Shown here in pieces: positions 20,992 to 34,094 of a stretch of 39,810 bases of DNA. The DNA comes from Candidatus Moraniibacteriota bacterium. Its GTDB lineage: Bacteria > Patescibacteriota > Minisyncoccia > Moranbacterales > UBA2206. The notes beneath the pieces are model-generated. The model was given only the letters and a program-made list of their open reading frames with translations, did no database searches and had not been told where the DNA came from. Location of the stretch: NCBI GenBank assembly GCA_030679985.1, contig JAUXSI010000045.1, positions 1 through 39,810 of the forward strand, written 5' to 3'. The position numbers and the translations under genes are program-made. Position 1 is the first letter of the stretch; each line of letters starts with the position of its first letter.

Positions 20992-21014
20992 TCCTAATCA
21001 ACGAGATTAGGAAA
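20992..21014 (-). repeat. stop-abutting palindrome, copy B
   Basis: ATTTCCTAATCTCG-TTGATTAGGAAA on the minus strand. The palindrome itself encodes the last two codons and the TAA stop of the creatininase gene, so it appears to have replaced the original C-terminus. Family with 16367-16389 and 24453-24480. Confidence 0.6.
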
Positions 21015-21669
21015 TAACTTTTAAGCAATTCCCAATCATTTCTTTCAAAATTTTCCGGCCGATTGCGAGTGAAGCCTTTTTCCGCGGATCGCAGCCGTAA
21101 TATCGGAAGCAATCGTCCGAAGCCGGGATTTTCATTTTCCGGCTTATTATTTTTTCTTCTGGATAACATGCCCAAAGAATTGATGTTTCGTATTCATCGG
21201 CATGCCTGACATGAATTGATAGATCCTGATAGGGATTCATGAAAATGATATTCCCTTGTTTCTTGGCAACTTTGAAAAGCGTTTCGACATGTTTTGCTCC
21301 GCCGTGACCCGTCACGATAATAATTTTTTTGAAGCCTTGTTTTCCCAAGGTTATCACCAGGCTGGTAATGACTTTTTCAAGAAGCGCAGGCTCAAGATAA
21401 TACATGCTGCCCGGAAGTTTTTTGCCCAAATGACGATCCATGCCAAATAACTTTTTACCCCGCACGATTCCGGATTTATCCGTCCCCAGATACATCGGCG
21501 GGAGAATATAGCCGGGTTTTTTCTTAGCGAGCATTTCGCATAATTTCACCGCTACCATATAATCCGTCTCTATCGGCAAATGGTTCCCGTGCCACTCCAA
21601 AGTGCCAATCGGCAGATACGCGATTCCCCTCTTCGCCATTTTTTCAAAATCTTTCAGATACGTTTTCAT
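21007..21669 (-). CDS. creatininase-family amidohydrolase, copy 1
   Basis: 220 residues, against about 240-260 for the family. Binuclear metal hydrolase fold: EWHGNHLPIETD supplies the Glu/His/Asp ligands, VTGHGGAKHVE stands where family members have NGHGGN, and HADEYETSILW supplies His and Glu. Known members act on creatinine, on an FAPy nucleotide in archaeal-type riboflavin synthesis, or in mycofactocin maturation; I cannot choose. The first 65 residues and the segment from HADEYETS to KIPASDDCFR are almost identical, including in DNA, to copy 2 at 25957-26628, while the middle has diverged. The C-terminus ends inside palindrome copy B. Confidence 0.83.
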   Translation of the reverse strand: MKTYLKDFEKMAKRGIAYLPIGTLEWHGNHLPIETDYMVAVKLCEMLAKKKPGYILPPMYLGTDKSGIVRGKKLFGMDRHLGKKLPGSMYYLEPALLEKVITSLVITLGKQGFKKIIIVTGHGGAKHVETLFKVAKKQGNIIFMNPYQDLSIHVRHADEYETSILWACYPEEKIISRKMKIPASDDCFRYYGCDPRKKASLAIGRKILKEMIGNCLKVIS

Positions 21670-25956: not shown

Positions 25957-26628
25957 TTATAAATATTTTTTTATTTCCCTCAAACAATTCTCAACCATCT
26001 CTTTTAATATCTTCCTCCCCAACCCAACTGACGCTTTTTTGCGCGGATCGTAGCCATAAAACCGAAAACAATCGTCCGAAGCCGGGATTTTCATTTTCCG
26101 GCTTATTATTTTTTCTTCTGGATAACATGCCCAAAGAATTGATGTTTCGTATTCATCAGCGTGCTTTGCGTCAATATTCAAATTCTCCCAAGGATTAACC
26201 AAAACCAATCCCGATTGTTTTTTCACGGCTTTGGCTAAAGTGTTCAGGTGTCCGGATCCCGCATGGCCTGCAATCAAAAATATTTTCTTGAATCCTTGCG
26301 ATTTCAGATTTTTTCCCAGGGATACTATCATTTTTTCAAAGAGCGCGGGATCGAGATAATACAAATTTCCCGCCAATTTTTTTCCGAGATAGCGGTCCAT
26401 TCCAACCAGCTTTTTGTTATTTACGATTTTATGCTTATCCGTCCCCAGATACATCGGCGGGAGAATATAGCCGGGTTTTTTCTTAGCGAGCATTTCGCAT
26501 AATTTCACCGCTACCAGATAATCCGTCTCTATCGGCAAATGGTTCCCGTGCCACTCCAAAGTGCCAATCGGCAGATACGCGATTCCCCTCTTCGCCATTT
26601 TTGAGAAATCTTTTAGGTATGTTTTCAT
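25957..26628 (-). CDS. creatininase-family amidohydrolase, copy 2
   Basis: 223 residues. Same layout as copy 1: EWHGNHLPIETD, IAGHAGSGHLN and HADEYETSILW. The glycine-rich GHGG of copy 1 is GHAG here. The DNA of the first 200 bases and of a block of about 90 bases in the last third is nearly identical to copy 1, while the middle differs at many positions. That pattern suggests gene conversion between the copies or domain-limited selection. The C-terminus is a few residues longer (CLREIKKYL) than copy 1, which has been cut by a palindrome. First gene of a pair with Nudix copy 2. Confidence 0.83.
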   Translation of the reverse strand: MKTYLKDFSKMAKRGIAYLPIGTLEWHGNHLPIETDYLVAVKLCEMLAKKKPGYILPPMYLGTDKHKIVNNKKLVGMDRYLGKKLAGNLYYLDPALFEKMIVSLGKNLKSQGFKKIFLIAGHAGSGHLNTLAKAVKKQSGLVLVNPWENLNIDAKHADEYETSILWACYPEEKIISRKMKIPASDDCFRFYGYDPRKKASVGLGRKILKEMVENCLREIKKYL

Positions 26629-27970: not shown

Positions 27971-28072
27971 TCAAACAGCTAAGCGGGCAAGAAAGTATGA
28001 CACCGTTGATTCGGCGCCCTGATTGAGATTTATATGCTCTTCACCGAATCCATCATAGCTGCTGTCAGTGCT
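27971..28072 (-). pseudogene. fossil C-terminus of a second (alpha/alpha)6 glycan protein
   Basis: 33 codons read NLNQGAESTVSYFLARL near the end and YDGFGEEHI before it, against NLNQGAESLLSYLSSRL and YDGLEEKGV in the intact gene at 29571-30632. The frame is closed upstream by a TAA and nothing upstream matches. This is the 3' end of a paralogous gene whose body is gone, replaced by the phosphotransferase gene at 28107. Too short for the ORF track. Confidence 0.75.
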
Positions 28073-28106
28073 TTAATAACGGAGGGAGCGAAAAATATTC
28101 GTAATA

Positions 28107-29228
28107 CTATCTGTTGCTTGTTGTTGACTCGTATTCTGAGATCGCATTTTCAATATTCGATCGAAAAGTTGCCACTTCATTCTGTATTTTTGGATCTAAA
28201 AGATCGGCATTTTCCGCTCTCCAAACTAAGTGAACTAAGTTTTCAACAACTATCCCAGAAAAAAGACCACGAACTCGATCTATATCTAAAGTACCCGATT
28301 CGTCATAGAAGTATGATTTCTGAAATATCTCACGATTTTCTGGATTCGTTCGAATATCCTTGTAAAACTTTCCAGCATCTTGCCCCAAAAAACCAACTCC
28401 TGCAAGTTCCCAATCGACAAGAGAAACTGTCCCGTCATTTTTGTTCATAACATTTTTTAGAGTGAGGTCTCCATGGGCAAACACAATCGGTAATTCCGGT
28501 CCTCCGAGAAATAAAGATGCAACTTTTTCTTTCACATCTTGATGAATAATATTTCCAGATCTATTGGCAAGATCACGAATTTCTTCATTTACTCTTCTTG
28601 CTTTTGAGAGATTTTTAATTTCTGGGTGCTGTGTTACGCGAGCTGACACATCAATGGATTCCATATACCGTATTTTTTTTGCCATATCGGCAACATGGTC
28701 TGGTGTCATGTTTTTTAATGTAGCGACCTGCCCCTCATTCATTGAAATGGATTCTATGATAATTGCTGCAGGTGTATCTTCTGTCGGATCGATAAGCTGT
28801 AACATCCGCGGACTGCCAAGTTCACGTAATTCGTTATCAAAAGTACCCATAATTTTTGACTCTAAGCGTAAAGAATCGAGCGTAGCGCCTCCACGAAAAT
28901 CAACTTTCATAAAACGCGTATCTCCTGTTTCATCCTTAACGAAACATGGATAAAATTTTGTTCCTCTATTATATTTCATTCGATGTTTAAGCCACTCACA
29001 GGCTGTTGGATAACGAATTTCTGGTGTTTGTGGGCTTACTTCGCTTACAAGAGCTAGTTTATTGTCTGAAAATAATCTGCTGATTCTTTCTTGAATATTT
29101 TCCGGAATTCCTTCCTTCTCTAACCATTCTTTCTCAACATCATTAAAAGACGCCCCTTTCCCCTCCCTATCTGGAAATATATCTGGCGCATTTTCATGTG
29201 ATGAACCAATGATTCTTTCAAAGTTCAT
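28107..29228 (-). CDS. APH-like phosphotransferase
   Basis: 373 residues with a protein-kinase-like fold of the aminoglycoside/choline kinase group. The catalytic loop is FAHGDLTLKNVMN (HGDxxxxN) and the metal-binding Asp is in SLVDWELAGVG. A lysine in RFMKVDFRGG is the likely ATP contact. The first 80 residues are poorly conserved. Many members phosphorylate small molecules such as sugars, choline or aminoglycosides; resistance is only one option. It overlaps the 50-residue gene by the ATGA arrangement and is translated with it. It lies between the intact glycan cassette and the fossil at 27971-28072, so it may have been inserted during the cassette's rearrangement. Confidence 0.85.
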   Translation of the reverse strand: MNFERIIGSSHENAPDIFPDREGKGASFNDVEKEWLEKEGIPENIQERISRLFSDNKLALVSEVSPQTPEIRYPTACEWLKHRMKYNRGTKFYPCFVKDETGDTRFMKVDFRGGATLDSLRLESKIMGTFDNELRELGSPRMLQLIDPTEDTPAAIIIESISMNEGQVATLKNMTPDHVADMAKKIRYMESIDVSARVTQHPEIKNLSKARRVNEEIRDLANRSGNIIHQDVKEKVASLFLGGPELPIVFAHGDLTLKNVMNKNDGTVSLVDWELAGVGFLGQDAGKFYKDIRTNPENREIFQKSYFYDESGTLDIDRVRGLFSGIVVENLVHLVWRAENADLLDPKIQNEVATFRSNIENAISEYESTTSNR

Positions 29229-29377
29229 TTTTTATTCCCCTTTTCTTCGTCTTTTACAATCAGCTTAGGATCAATCATTATCCCTTTTTCGAGCATAGCT
29301 TCTTGTTCCTCAGGTGATAGTATACGTATTTCTCCCGTCTTTGGATCTTGAATTTTTATTGATTTAAATAATGACAT
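29225..29377 (-). CDS. 50-residue protein coupled to the phosphotransferase
   Basis: Below the ORF-track size limit. It starts at ATG 29377, and its TGA overlaps the ATG of the phosphotransferase (ATGA), a strong sign of translational coupling. It is soluble and charged, with IQDPKTGEIRILSPEEQEAM. No known family. The promoter at 29404-29432 lies directly upstream and there is no Shine-Dalgarno. It is probably a small accessory or regulatory protein, or only a coupling leader. Confidence 0.7.
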   Translation of the reverse strand: MSLFKSIKIQDPKTGEIRILSPEEQEAMLEKGIMIDPKLIVKDEEKGNKK

Positions 29378-29403
29378 ATTTAATAAGTTATAAATTTATT
29401 CGT

Positions 29404-29432
29404 ATTATATACTTTTTATATCCCGGCGTAAA
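29404..29432 (-). promoter_or_regulatory. promoter of the small protein and phosphotransferase pair
   Basis: TATAAT (29404-29409), 17-base spacer and a weak TTTACG (29427-29432) on the minus strand. The predicted start is about 20 bases before the ATG. Confidence 0.55.
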
Positions 29433-29570
29433 TGCGTTTATATGTTTCTTGAAGATATTATATATGAACTCTCCTTCTGTTTAATCTGGTCACTTTTACT
29501 GAACGAAGCTTGAATCTATTTTGAGCGAATGTCTGCGCTCTGACGGGAACAAAAGCAATGGATGCCGGAT

Positions 29571-30632
29571 CTAATCTTTGAAAGAAAGGCGGGATGAAAG
29601 GTAAGATAATAATGATTCAGCTCCTTGATTTAGGTTGACTCCTTTTTCCTCTAATCCGTCATATACTCCACCTGTATTTTGATCAACCATTTTAGCCCCC
29701 AAAATATTTCTCCCGTAATACCAATCGAGAGCTTTTTTCGCCCAATCTAGGTATTTTTTTTCTTTTGTAACCGAAAATGCTTCTATGCAAGCTTCCACTA
29801 CTGAACCCGCTTCAATCGGTTGTTGCCCGAAAACAGATCTATAGCCGCTTTTTTCAAACCACCCTCGATAACCTGGGAACGAAAAACAGTCTAATTTTTT
29901 GTCATAAATCTGTTCCAGCAGAAAATCTAATGATTCCTTGGCGACATTTAAATATTTTATATCGCCAAAAACCGAGTAAGCCCAAAACAAAGCCCACGGC
30001 AATCTTCCGTTATCGTAGGCAATTTTATCTTCAAACCATCTCCATGAAATATCAGAGTTCTTTTCGTAGCTTGTTATTAATTCATCAGACAATATTTTTG
30101 CCATTTTTTTAAAGTCATATTCTCCTATTTTTTCAATTTTATTCTGGGAGATTTTAACCTTTGTGTAATTTTCTAGCACCGATTTCAGTTTAGGGCTACA
30201 CTGATCTCTCATCAAAAGGCCATAAATCAACCATGACTTACTCCTAAGAGATTCTACTTTTTCAATACATTTTATGTATTGATCAAATAAAAACATGCTT
30301 GTCAGCTTCTGGTCCTCCCGTGGTCCCAGTTTTGCGGTATCCGCCAATCCTGCCATTGCCCGGCCAAAATTTTCTCCAATGGACTCATTTTCCCAAACCA
30401 AATTCTGATTCATGTCGTTCTTGAAACCATATTCCCCTGCAGCCGAGACTAAAAATCTCAAGTAAATATCAACCAATTTTTCCTCTTTTAGTCTAAGCGC
30501 CACCTGTAAAGCTCGAGCATTATCATCCACGCAGTATCCCTCCCGCAAATCTGGTGTAGCTATCAAACAATGCTCTGCTATCCCAACCATGTCGGTCATC
30601 CGATAAAGGTGATCAAGTTTTGGTTTATTCAT
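29571..30632 (-). CDS. (alpha/alpha)6-type glycan protein of the GH130 cassette
   Basis: 353 residues, all helical in pattern, with a start HLYRMTDMVGIAEHCLIATPD and repeated aromatic-rich helix pairs (PWALFWAYSVFGDIKYL, KKYLDWAKKALDWYYG), as in (alpha/alpha)6 glycosidases or epimerases. The usual catalytic residues cannot be picked with confidence. Proteins of this type sit beside GH130 phosphorylases and two GT4 transferases in several bacterial genomes (from general knowledge). It overlaps the upstream GT by eight bases, so the genes are cotranscribed. A fossil of a second copy lies at 27971-28072. Confidence 0.7.
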   Translation of the reverse strand: MNKPKLDHLYRMTDMVGIAEHCLIATPDLREGYCVDDNARALQVALRLKEEKLVDIYLRFLVSAAGEYGFKNDMNQNLVWENESIGENFGRAMAGLADTAKLGPREDQKLTSMFLFDQYIKCIEKVESLRSKSWLIYGLLMRDQCSPKLKSVLENYTKVKISQNKIEKIGEYDFKKMAKILSDELITSYEKNSDISWRWFEDKIAYDNGRLPWALFWAYSVFGDIKYLNVAKESLDFLLEQIYDKKLDCFSFPGYRGWFEKSGYRSVFGQQPIEAGSVVEACIEAFSVTKEKKYLDWAKKALDWYYGRNILGAKMVDQNTGGVYDGLEEKGVNLNQGAESLLSYLSSRLSFKD

Positions 30633-31656
30633 GTTTTTCCTTTACCTTCAAAATTTTTTGATATACTTTTTCATAATTATCCACCATTTGTTCCACTGTA
30701 AAGTTTTTCTCTACTCTTTCCCTGCAATTTTCCCTGGAAATTGAGCCAATATTTTTCATGGCGCTTTCCGCTTCTTTGAGGTTTTTAACCACAAAGCCTG
30801 TTTTTCGATCGTCAATTACTTCAGAAATAGACCCCAATTCCATTCCGATAACAGGCGTCCCGCAAGCCATCGCCTCAATTAGAGTTAAGCCAAAACCTTC
30901 AGGGTAAGTGTTCAAATGAAGAAAGCCATAAGCGTTTTTCAACAGAGTTTTCTTTTCTTTCTCTTCGACTAATCCTAAATATTGGATTTTATAATTTAGA
31001 TGAGGTTTGATTTCTTTTTCAAAGTATTCTTTATTTTCTGGAGCGGTAAGGCCGGCAATTTTTAGGTTAACGTTTAATTTCTTTGCCAGCTTGATTGCAT
31101 TGTGGACACCTTTATCCGGAGATATTCGACCGATAAAACAAAAATAGTTATCTGGTTTACCATTGTACGGGTAATCGTTTACCGGAATACCGTGGTAAAT
31201 ATTGGCTATATAATTTAAATTTGGTGCGTGTTTTCGATCGGCATAGCTTATTGAAACATAATAAGTATTTGAATATTTTTCATAAATTTGGTTAACCTGC
31301 GGAGAGGAAAAACCGTGGATGGTGGTAACAACTGGAGTTTTAACCAGTTTTGAGAAAACAAGAGGGTAAGCATCATAGTGATTATGGATAATGTCATATT
31401 GATCCGCGTCTTCAAAAACAGAAGCTGTGTGAAGGTATTGATAAACTTTTGGTTCTAAATCAGAGTCTTCCATTATCGGTTTAGGACAGACCCATTTCAA
31501 CCGTGCAGTCGTTTCTGAATCTCCTGTTGCGTAAAGAGTTACTGAATGGCCGAGTTTGACCATCCCTTCTGCGATATTGCTGGCAATTAGTTCCCATGGA
31601 CCGTATTTAGTCGGAGGGGTTCTCCAATGAATCGGTGAAAGAATAGCGATTTTCAT
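30625..31656 (-). CDS. GT4-type glycosyltransferase
   Basis: 343 residues, GT-B fold. N-terminal domain PIHWRTPPTKYGPWELIA with the substrate-side glycine region, DIIHNHYDAYP, then FIGRISPDKGVHNAIKLA and the nucleotide-sugar E-x7-E motif YPEGFGLTLIEAMACGTPVIG. Retaining transferase; donor probably GDP-mannose or UDP-sugar but not determinable here. Five bases after the previous transferase gene, eight-base overlap with the next. Likely role: synthesis of a cell-envelope or storage glycan together with the second GT4 and the GH130. Confidence 0.9.
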   Translation of the reverse strand: MKIAILSPIHWRTPPTKYGPWELIASNIAEGMVKLGHSVTLYATGDSETTARLKWVCPKPIMEDSDLEPKVYQYLHTASVFEDADQYDIIHNHYDAYPLVFSKLVKTPVVTTIHGFSSPQVNQIYEKYSNTYYVSISYADRKHAPNLNYIANIYHGIPVNDYPYNGKPDNYFCFIGRISPDKGVHNAIKLAKKLNVNLKIAGLTAPENKEYFEKEIKPHLNYKIQYLGLVEEKEKKTLLKNAYGFLHLNTYPEGFGLTLIEAMACGTPVIGMELGSISEVIDDRKTGFVVKNLKEAESAMKNIGSISRENCRERVEKNFTVEQMVDNYEKVYQKILKVKEKHE

Positions 31657-31661
31657 TAAAT

Positions 31662-32849
31662 TTATTTTTTTGAAAAAGCAATCGTTCTAAAAAGATTGAG
31701 GTATTGAAGTCCTATATTTGACCAAGTCATTAGTCTTCCATAATCGTAAGCTTTTTGGCTAATTCTTTCTTTTTTATCCTGATTTACCCACAATTCTATT
31801 ACCGCAGAAGCAATCGAATCAGCGTCCCGAAAAGGAACAAGAATACCTCTGTTATTGTCTAAAACCTCCTTCGCATATAAATATGGTGTGGAAATACAAC
31901 ATTTTCCTGCGCCTATGGCATAAGCAAGCGCTCCGGAGGCAGCTTGTTGGGGATCAAGATAGGGGGTGACATAAAAATCAATGATTTTTAACCAACCGAT
32001 TAATTCGTCAAGCGAAAGATATTTATTAACAAATCTGACATTCTTTTCTATTTTTAGTCTTTTTATTTCCTTTTTAAGAAAATTGCGGTATTCTTCGCCG
32101 TTAGTTTGTAAAAATACCGGGTGTGTTTGTCCGATTACTAGATATAAAACATTTGGATATTTTTTAGCGATAATAGCCACGGCACCTAAAGCATACTCAA
32201 TTCCTCTAGTTGGAGTTAACAGATTAATATTACCAAGGATTATCCTTCCGCTAAGTTGTTTTTTCTTCTTATGTGTATCTGTCGGAGCAAATGGAAGATC
32301 GGGTGTTCCGTGCGGAATGACTATAATTTTTTCTCTAGAAGCGCTATATCCATTGACCAATTTATCTTTGATTTTTTCCATCATAACAACTACGGCATCC
32401 GATTTTTTAATCACCCTTTTGAGAATCGTTCCTTCCCGACTGCTCGAATCATCAGGTACTGTGTGGAGGGTAGTTACTAGCGGTTTTTTTAGCGATTCTA
32501 CAAAAGGAATAATATATTCCCCACACTCACCACCAAACAAACCGTATTCGTGCTGAAGGGAAACAATATCGGTACCCGATTGGTTAATGTAATTAGCTGC
32601 TTCAAGATAAGTATGTAGCTCCTCTTGTTTAATTTTGTATTTTACTTCCCACGGGTAATTTATACACTCTTTTGGCCTTGTGGCGGCCATAATTTCCGCC
32701 AAATCATGAGGATTGAGTAAGTTGATCGCGTTGGTTAAATCTTTTGTATAAGTGGCAATACCACACTTACGCGGTATGTATGAAGAAAGGTAAATAGCCC
32801 TAATTTCTTTAGACTTTGAGGTTAAAAGTTTTTCTAAGTTTTTTGTCAT
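31662..32849 (-). CDS. GT4-type glycosyltransferase
   Basis: 395 residues, GT-B fold. N-terminal SSYIPRKCGIATYTKDL (the glycine loop), DIVSLQHEYGLFGGECGEY, TTLHTVPDD. C-terminal domain VIPHGTPDLPF, GNINLLTPTRGIEYALGAV. The end of the donor site is less canonical than in the next gene: YLDPQQAASGALAYAIGAGK stands where the E-x7-E motif should be. This suggests a different donor or a mainly acceptor-binding role. AAAGGA lies about 13 bases before the start. The fossil GH130 end lies directly upstream. Confidence 0.88.
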   Translation of the reverse strand: MTKNLEKLLTSKSKEIRAIYLSSYIPRKCGIATYTKDLTNAINLLNPHDLAEIMAATRPKECINYPWEVKYKIKQEELHTYLEAANYINQSGTDIVSLQHEYGLFGGECGEYIIPFVESLKKPLVTTLHTVPDDSSSREGTILKRVIKKSDAVVVMMEKIKDKLVNGYSASREKIIVIPHGTPDLPFAPTDTHKKKKQLSGRIILGNINLLTPTRGIEYALGAVAIIAKKYPNVLYLVIGQTHPVFLQTNGEEYRNFLKKEIKRLKIEKNVRFVNKYLSLDELIGWLKIIDFYVTPYLDPQQAASGALAYAIGAGKCCISTPYLYAKEVLDNNRGILVPFRDADSIASAVIELWVNQDKKERISQKAYDYGRLMTWSNIGLQYLNLFRTIAFSKK

Positions 32850-32885
32850 ACTTGAGAGCTTTCCTTTATTTGCGTTTCATCTCGT

Positions 32886-32966
32886 TTAGAAATCAGCTCC
32901 ATAATATACCACTAATCTTCCATCTTGTACAATTGTGCCGGTTGGAAAAACTGCATTGTTTGTTTG
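32886..32966 (-). pseudogene. fossil C-terminus of a second GH130
   Basis: 26 codons read TNNAVFPTGTIVQDG and then RLVVYYGADF before TAA. The intact gene has TNNVVFPTGAVVKDG and RIYIYYGAGD. The match is in a different frame from the intact gene and starts at once after its stop codon, so it cannot be a readthrough. It is the 3' remnant of a paralogue joined to the end of the intact GH130. Too short for the ORF track. Confidence 0.75.
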
Positions 32967-32968
32967 TT

Positions 32969-33988
32969 CTATCTTTTCTTGAGTTCAATCAGTAGCTCCA
33001 TGAGGTCAACAGATTTCGCGGCGATTAACTTGTCGCCCGCTCCATAATAAATATAAATTCGTCCGTCTTTTACTACTGCTCCGGTAGGAAAGACAACATT
33101 ATTTGTAACACCACTTTTTTCCCAAGAAGCCTTTGGGGAAAACAGGGGTTCTTTTAATCGCCCCAAAACTTTTAGGGGATTTTTGAGATCAAGTAGCGCG
33201 GCACTGGCATGATAAATTTTTCCGTATTTTGAATCCTCTGCTGCGTGATAAATCAAGAGCCAGCCATCCTCCGTCTCAATAGGAACCGCTCCGCCACCAA
33301 TTTTGTAACTCTCAAACTCATACTTTGGATCAAGAATGATATATTTAGCAAGTTCAACAAAATATTTTCGCCAGTAATCATCATTGAGTTCGGAAAATGA
33401 ATTAAAATAAGCAATCTGGATTCCAGGGAGTATTCGATGAATAAGGGCAAATTTTCCGTTAAATTTTTTCGGAAAAATAAACGCGTCTTTTTCCCACAGA
33501 AAAACATCTTTCCCTGCTCGGTCTTTCAGCACTGATTCAAACATTTGATATCTTTCCCGCACTTTCGACTGTCTAAACAAATCTTCCGCTTCATCGTAAG
33601 TAAATTGCGCCGAAATAATTCCACGTTTTCCAAAATGCGCAAGATCTTCGCTGGTAGCATAGGCAATCATGGCATTTTTTCCGTCATAGACAGTATAAAA
33701 AAGATAATATATTCCATCCAAAAAAACGATGCGAGGATCTTCTATGCCTTTTTTTTCAAAGTCATGTTCGGGAACCAAAATCGGATGATCAAACCGATTA
33801 ACTGCTTTCCCATTTTCATCGATTTGACAATATCCAATTGAAGAAACAAGATCGCCCTTTCGCACTGCTCGATAGAACATGTGCGTAATGCCGTTCGCTT
33901 CAATACACGTCGGATTGAACACCGCTTCGTTTTCAAATGGTAAATCGGTGGCCTGAAGGATAATTCCTTCATCTTTAACTTGAACCAT
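32969..33988 (-). CDS. GH130 beta-mannoside phosphorylase or hydrolase
   Basis: Acts on beta-mannosidic linkages, in most known members by phosphorolysis to give mannose-1-phosphate. 339 residues from the chosen start MVQVKDEG (33988); the track's ATG at 34066 adds 26 residues without family resemblance. Five-bladed propeller marks: FNPTCIEANGITHMFYRAV, KKGIEDPRIVFLDG with the catalytic Asp, HAAEDSKYGKIYHASAALLD, and FPTGAVVKDGRIYIYYGAGD at the end. It is the first gene of the GH130-GT4-GT4-(alpha/alpha)6 cassette. A partial duplicate of its end lies at 32886-32966. Confidence 0.9.
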   Translation of the reverse strand: MVQVKDEGIILQATDLPFENEAVFNPTCIEANGITHMFYRAVRKGDLVSSIGYCQIDENGKAVNRFDHPILVPEHDFEKKGIEDPRIVFLDGIYYLFYTVYDGKNAMIAYATSEDLAHFGKRGIISAQFTYDEAEDLFRQSKVRERYQMFESVLKDRAGKDVFLWEKDAFIFPKKFNGKFALIHRILPGIQIAYFNSFSELNDDYWRKYFVELAKYIILDPKYEFESYKIGGGAVPIETEDGWLLIYHAAEDSKYGKIYHASAALLDLKNPLKVLGRLKEPLFSPKASWEKSGVTNNVVFPTGAVVKDGRIYIYYGAGDKLIAAKSVDLMELLIELKKR

Positions 33989-34094
33989 AATGAATATCTT
34001 GAAATAATAATCTATACACGAATCCTGCGAGGTCTTCGAAAAATAGCTTGAATAAACAAGCCTCATTGGTCTTGCTTTATACTTTTCATTCTAG

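Follow-up and report, generated by a model that had tools for sequence, protein, structure and literature searches.

The glycan cassette of the window, by which we mean the whole 39,810-nt stretch of metagenomic contig that was analysed, appears to have arisen through a series of recombination events that replaced glycosyltransferase/partner modules behind a GH130 gene, across family and class borders, a reading to which we assign a probability of roughly 0.85. It draws on a hybrid GH130 gene, on the end of another GH130 that lies at a junction shared with Microgenomates, and on the end of a fused gene left at the far side of the cassette. Read on the minus strand from tRNA-Asp towards rlmN, the genes are the intact GH130, two GT4 glycosyltransferases (GT_A and GT_B), an (alpha/alpha)6 partner and an APH-like phosphotransferase, and the locus contains the following features:

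33191 to 34020, minus strand: 5' part of GH130 with about 30 nt of leader, G040 type; about 90-96% DNA identity to locus L034 in the coding part
32969 to 33190, minus strand: 3' part of GH130, Microgenomates type; 98-100% to locus L078 in 33190-33071, 60-63% to L034
32889 to 32978, minus strand: GH130 remnant, the last ~30 codons of another GH130, without start codon; identified by profile and own-genome match
31662 to 32849, minus strand: GT_A, a GT4 glycosyltransferase (Pfam Glycos_transf_1); 89% to L078, 88% to L079
30625 to 31656, minus strand: GT_B, a second GT4 glycosyltransferase; 90% to L078, 92% to L079
29571 to 30632, minus strand: (alpha/alpha)6 partner with an AGE/GH76-like fold; 88% to L078, 71% (mosaic) to L079
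29487 to 29570, minus strand: downstream flank, where recognisable donor-type DNA ends; blastn match at 29487-29529, 81% to L078
29225 to 29377, minus strand: 50-aa open frame overlapping the phosphotransferase start
28107 to 29228, minus strand: APH/choline-kinase-like phosphotransferase (Pfam APH, 3.8e-11)
27974 to 28072, minus strand: partner remnant, the 3' end (~28-33 codons) of a fused GT4::(alpha/alpha)6 gene; matches to fused-gene C-termini

The intact GH130 spans 32969-33988 when counted from its likely start at 33988. The phosphotransferase occupies the displaced end of the cassette; no close relative of it was found in 380 genomes of the phylum (the best reached 40%), and no relative of the 50-aa frame was found among the fetched loci.

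Both remnants are real gene ends and not chance resemblances. The preliminary description of this DNA had recognised a GH130 end directly behind the intact GH130 and a partner end downstream of the phosphotransferase, and had taken both for 3' ends of diverged paralogues, all of which was borne out. Searched against its own genome, the intact GH130 protein matched 32892-32987 (E 2.0e-6, 56% identity), and a GH130 family profile matched the remnant at 32892-32978 with E 3e-8 over profile positions 289-316 of 335; the intact partner protein found the other remnant at E 4.8e-4 (53%), and the partner family profile matched it over positions 300-330 of 331 (E 8e-12). The profiles drew on 49 GH130 and 75 partner sequences, out of 87 loci plus the window, and the E-values of the remnants come from family-specific searches; a Pfam search of the 30-aa remnant pieces alone gave no match. 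Similarity no better than that of random sequence would have spoken against the remnants, and both matches to the families lie well below chance.

The GH130 remnant, which translates as EKIEQTNNAVFPTGTIVQDGRLVVYYGADF followed by a stop, runs from 32978 down to about 32889, directly past the stop of the intact GH130, whose last codons it overlaps. The repeat is also visible in the DNA (32896-32963 vs 33039-33106, 72%), and the upstream region of GT_A, with its ribosome-binding site, forms part of the remnant. When species genomes were scanned with the partner protein, close three-gene forms turned up in two Microgenomates loci, L078 (RBG_16_45_19) and L079 (Roizmanbacteria), the genome of the latter (G509) belonging to a different class from the window genome. 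Over ~4.36 kb of DNA the window cassette genes are 86.7% identical to L078 and 82.9% to L079, with protein identities of 71-92% for GT_A, GT_B and the partner. The comparison with related loci, which had been proposed as a check, thus recovered the same module with the same scar junction. In L078 a GH130 remnant of 27 aa (89%) sits at the identical junction and lacks one base near its end; in L079 the junction is as in the window and L078, and the remnant is shortened by a 28-nt deletion. The scar junction, AAGAAAAGATAG joined to GACAAACAAACAAT, is common to the window and L078, one base differing in the window. Since it lies at this shared junction, the GH130 remnant would have come with the module and be older than the module's arrival in the window, and we read it as an old scar within the incoming block. 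The GH130 of L078 is itself 91% identical in its 5' part to that of another genome (G205, locus L209) and 87% to that of a further one (G514, locus L172), in both of which fused genes follow; DNA similarity between L078 and L209 begins ahead of GH130, continues to the final codons of that gene and ends at the scar.

The fused arrangement, in which GH130 is followed by one GT4::partner gene of ~740 aa, was found in G002, G005, G009 and G040, the last from another family. It is to a locus of the G040 type, L034, that the 5' part of the window GH130 is closest: the leader block (34030-33971) is 80% and the first coding block 88% identical to L034, and the third-position difference to L034 across the 5' part is 0.11, as against a DNA identity of 58-75% between this part and L078. 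The switch falls inside six shared nucleotides, CTACTT (33196-33191), with the best breakpoint between 33197 and 33190. At the breakpoint the maximum chi-square is 181 over 336 informative sites, a value reached in 0 of 2000 permutations; L034-like sites make up 234 of the 256 before the switch and 12 of the 80 after it, and taking L079 as the second parent instead of L078 left the result unchanged. By these alignments the intact GH130 is a recombinant of a G040-type part (other family, same order) and a Microgenomates-type part. At about 33035-33065 the Microgenomates-type 3' part contains a short L034-like patch, which points to another minor exchange or to a donor outside the sample and shows that the history was more complex than one crossover.

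At the opposite end of the cassette, the partner remnant begins ~35 nt past the phosphotransferase stop and forms a 33-codon open frame without start codon (28072-27974; translation SSYDGFGEEHINLNQGAESTVSYFLARLAV, then a stop). It is most similar to the C-terminal ends of fused genes of 739-772 aa (fused vs split genes, Mann-Whitney p = 3e-5, from 28 codons and few sites), and thus it would be the end of a displaced gene and not a copy of the present partner. The preliminary description had asked whether the remnants belong to another subfamily; the partner remnant groups with the fused genes of other cassettes and not with the three-gene form of the window. Compared with L034 over 28 codons, it differs at 9, 0 and 13 sites in codon positions 1, 2 and 3, so that most of these differences probably arose while the sequence was still coding; that no second position changed speaks against simple neutral decay as their cause. 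A third-position difference of 13/28 in the remnant, set against 0.11 in the GH130 5' part, probably indicates different sources, small as the sample is, and at least three sources would then meet at this locus, again with the small remnant sample in mind. The same contrast (13/28 vs 0.11 per site, a small test) led us to reject the derivation of both remnants from one G040-type cassette. A related gene end was seen in a genome of family f11 (L244, G043:C41), where the contig opens at 1-106 with the final 27 codons of a partner gene of the window type, at 90.7% DNA identity, the remainder of the gene falling outside the contig.

A comparable pattern appears within one of the Microgenomates loci. 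The partner gene of L079 (7151-8209) is 91-97% identical in DNA to that of the window over the first ~270 nt, 48-66% across most of the middle and 97% again along ~90 nt close to the 3' end, which we interpret as an intragenic body swap with the ends kept. The idea that bodies are replaced while ends stay is therefore seen twice, here (97% / 48-66% / 97%) and in the window GH130 (33197-33190). Other relatives offer further variants of these cassettes. Tandem GH130-like genes, up to several in a row, occur in fourteen of the genomes compared, often as two GH130 domains within one frame of ~640 aa, and one locus (L158, G865:C130) carries GH130, GT_A and partner as an inverted duplication that is likely an assembly artefact.

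Several other histories could leave a locus of this kind. One would be a tandem duplication within the genome, after which one cassette was deleted except for two 3' ends. It would account for a region flanked by two paralogous 3' ends and for a GH130 remnant that adjoins the intact GH130, and the preliminary description had allowed for it in naming a tandem or exchanged cassette as the simplest reading. We consider it highly improbable: the two remnants are of different cassette types, L078 and L079 carry the GH130 remnant at the identical junction, the intact GH130 combines two sources from outside, and both remnants diverge from the local genes far beyond what a recent copy would show. The shared GH130 scar and the other type of the partner remnant led us to reject duplication; of the earlier wording, exchange stands, through the hybrid GH130 and the shared scar, and the tandem part falls with the scar in the two Microgenomates loci. 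Nor did the two remnants originate in one second cassette, as had been supposed, the GH130 scar having come with the module and the partner remnant being of the fused-gene type. Another possibility is that the remnants are kept functional sequences, serving translational coupling or as recombination handles, and not decaying leftovers. The native upstream region of GT_A lies within the GH130 remnant, and 3'-end remnants recur in L034, L035, L078 and L079; those of L034 (12271-12414) and L035 (15019-15129) are ends of a GT_B-like gene directly behind a fused GT4::partner gene. However, the 28 nt deleted in L079 and the base lost in L078 mean that the coding frame is not conserved, and the predominance of 3' ends (all clear internal remnants in the 87 loci plus the window) comes from few cases and may mislead because conserved motifs there make detection easier. 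A retained function is in our view unlikely.

An assembly chimera, in which two populations fused in a metagenomic contig give an apparent mosaic, deserves attention because the contig comes from a metagenome bin in which it is probably misplaced. Its gyrB (G000:C21, 12614-14656) is 90% identical to that of G072 and 83-86% to those of G061, G055 and G043 (family f11), as against 65-70% to genomes of family f1, and another gyrB lies on C8 of the same bin; the contig was thus probably mis-binned and would derive from an organism resembling f11, within the same order. A false join within the cassette is another matter, and quite improbable. The parents share only 6 nt at the switch point, and the k-mers that assemblers usually employ are longer than that; the hybrid GH130 is distinct from both known parents; and the flanks, with rlmN at one end and tRNA-Asp, two tRNA-Met and glutamine synthetase at the opposite end, belong to one lineage with the gene order of G072, so that two compensating false joins would be needed. 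G072 has rlmN, 8 kb of unrelated genes, tRNA-Asp, two tRNA-Met and glutamine synthetase in the order of the window; in G061 rlmN and the tRNA group, inverted there, are separated by ~0.7 kb. The cassette interval thus sits between conserved flanks, with other or no content in these relatives, and it is because both flanks are syntenic with relatives lacking the cassette that a chimeric assembly is unlikely. Elsewhere in the window, two close creatininase-family paralogues (21007-21669 and 25957-26628) each lie near a NUDIX-like gene or its trace; G072 and G061 have one creatininase-family gene each in the fetched stretch. The variable interval, together with a cassette start ~100 nt from the 3' end of tRNA-Asp, also recalls a mobile element integrated at that tRNA. 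Yet the far boundary has no direct repeat of at least 14 nt of the tRNA 3' end and the interval holds no integrase gene; with att repeat and integrase both absent we rejected an integrative element, which now seems extremely unlikely. Two scans of viral contigs found no relative, and plasmid carriage was set aside as well, the plasmid scan having returned only distant fused genes with 34% identity or less. Those fused GT4::partner genes sit on plasmids, conjugative ones among them, from Sphingomonas, Sphingobium, Rhizobium and others, with at most 34% identity in the partner domain.

Serial replacement by recombination could have proceeded as follows. A GT_A-GT_B-partner module that still bore the final codons of its former GH130 would have been placed behind a GH130 of the kind that accompanies fused genes; we infer this joining step, because none of the examined loci showed a donor or ancestor in which the module follows a complete GH130 of its own. 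Incoming DNA, most simply acquired by natural transformation, may then have recombined in homologous cassette genes or through short identities, replacing the resident fused gene except for its 3' end, which stayed behind as the partner remnant. GH130 would have received its present 5' part in a later or simultaneous exchange. Microgenomates could have been the recipient of the cassette and not its donor. A far broader generalisation, in which one small glycan cassette is repeatedly re-shuffled across Patescibacteria families and classes through recombination in its own genes, with the conserved 3' ends of GH130 and partner as joining points and GH130 as the constant anchor for swapped modules, amounting to phylum-wide glycan switching, is conceivable but doubtful.

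The functional meaning of such an exchange can be approached through the protein families involved. The window GH130 scores 159.3 bits against Pfam PF04041 (gathering score 26) and 210.4 bits against NF052550, the beta-1,2-mannobiose phosphorylase model, below the equivalog cut-off of 450; its closest solved relatives are 9fj8 and 7fip (1,2-beta-oligomannan and beta-1,2-mannobiose phosphorylases), and it is thus predicted to be related to beta-1,2-mannobiose phosphorylases, not a proven member of them. The partner stays below the gathering score of the GH76 family (PF03663; 21.9 vs 25.9 bits); its AlphaFold model (pLDDT 95.2) matches 7tem in Foldseek at E 7e-11 and N-acylglucosamine and cellobiose 2-epimerases at E about 1e-7, so that the predicted fold is an (alpha/alpha)6 barrel resembling the N-acylglucosamine 2-epimerase superfamily. 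As to the product, one may reasonably guess at a beta-mannoside polymer, either in the cytoplasm or at the surface. The selected effect, if any, would be an altered set of glycosyltransferases and partner working with GH130 and, probably, an altered glycan of the beta-mannoside type. A swap of glycan type, as the preliminary description proposed, may have occurred.

If this reading is right, reduced and uncultivated bacteria recombine within the genes of carbohydrate cassettes across family and class borders and leave readable scars. Should this be general, such scars would allow glycan-locus switches to be counted and ordered, in organisms whose attachment to hosts and sensitivity to phages probably depend on surface sugars. 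It is also a reason for caution, as single-gene trees of such cassettes blend histories.

Some components of the cassette have counterparts in known systems. Teth514_1788 and Teth514_1789 (PMC4264767) are GH130 beta-1,2-mannoside phosphorylases of the same family as the window GH130, but the latter adjoins GT4 genes. Closer in gene content is the Ilyobacter plasmid pILYOP02, where the order GT4 - GH130 - GH130 - GT4::(alpha/alpha)6 brings together the kinds of genes found here, the fused gene included; it differs in its phylum, in its two GH130 genes and in an identity of 34% in the partner domain. For the exchange itself, the best parallel is the cps island of Neisseria meningitidis, which holds an intact galE1 and a truncated galE2 that lost its first 402 nt and kept the last 615; illegitimate recombination has been proposed as the origin of this remnant, and serogroup switching proceeds by block exchange with boundaries reported inside galE1 (PMC5349592). 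The window has features of the same kind: an intact gene and the (short) 3' remnant of a displaced allele flank a glycan-synthesis block, a truncated paralogue accompanies the intact gene, the crossover lies in the boundary gene, and the outer flanks are conserved. In contrast to cps, donors and recipients come from different Patescibacteria families and classes, the boundary gene is GH130 and the remnants measure ~30 codons; cps is a capsule locus, whereas a capsule or surface location is putative for the window cassette. Within the Patescibacteria, a study of horizontal gene transfer (PMC12455944) describes transfer as frequent, places most individual transfers between members of the group and cites competence and homologous recombination genes as widespread; it appears to cover whole genes, islands and prophages, and the window resolves intragenic crossovers and remnant ends at the level of single bases, a resolution that is rare for such switching in this group. 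On this comparison, the kind of glycan-locus switching we describe would be one already known, and what would make the present case special is an intragenic crossover between classes.
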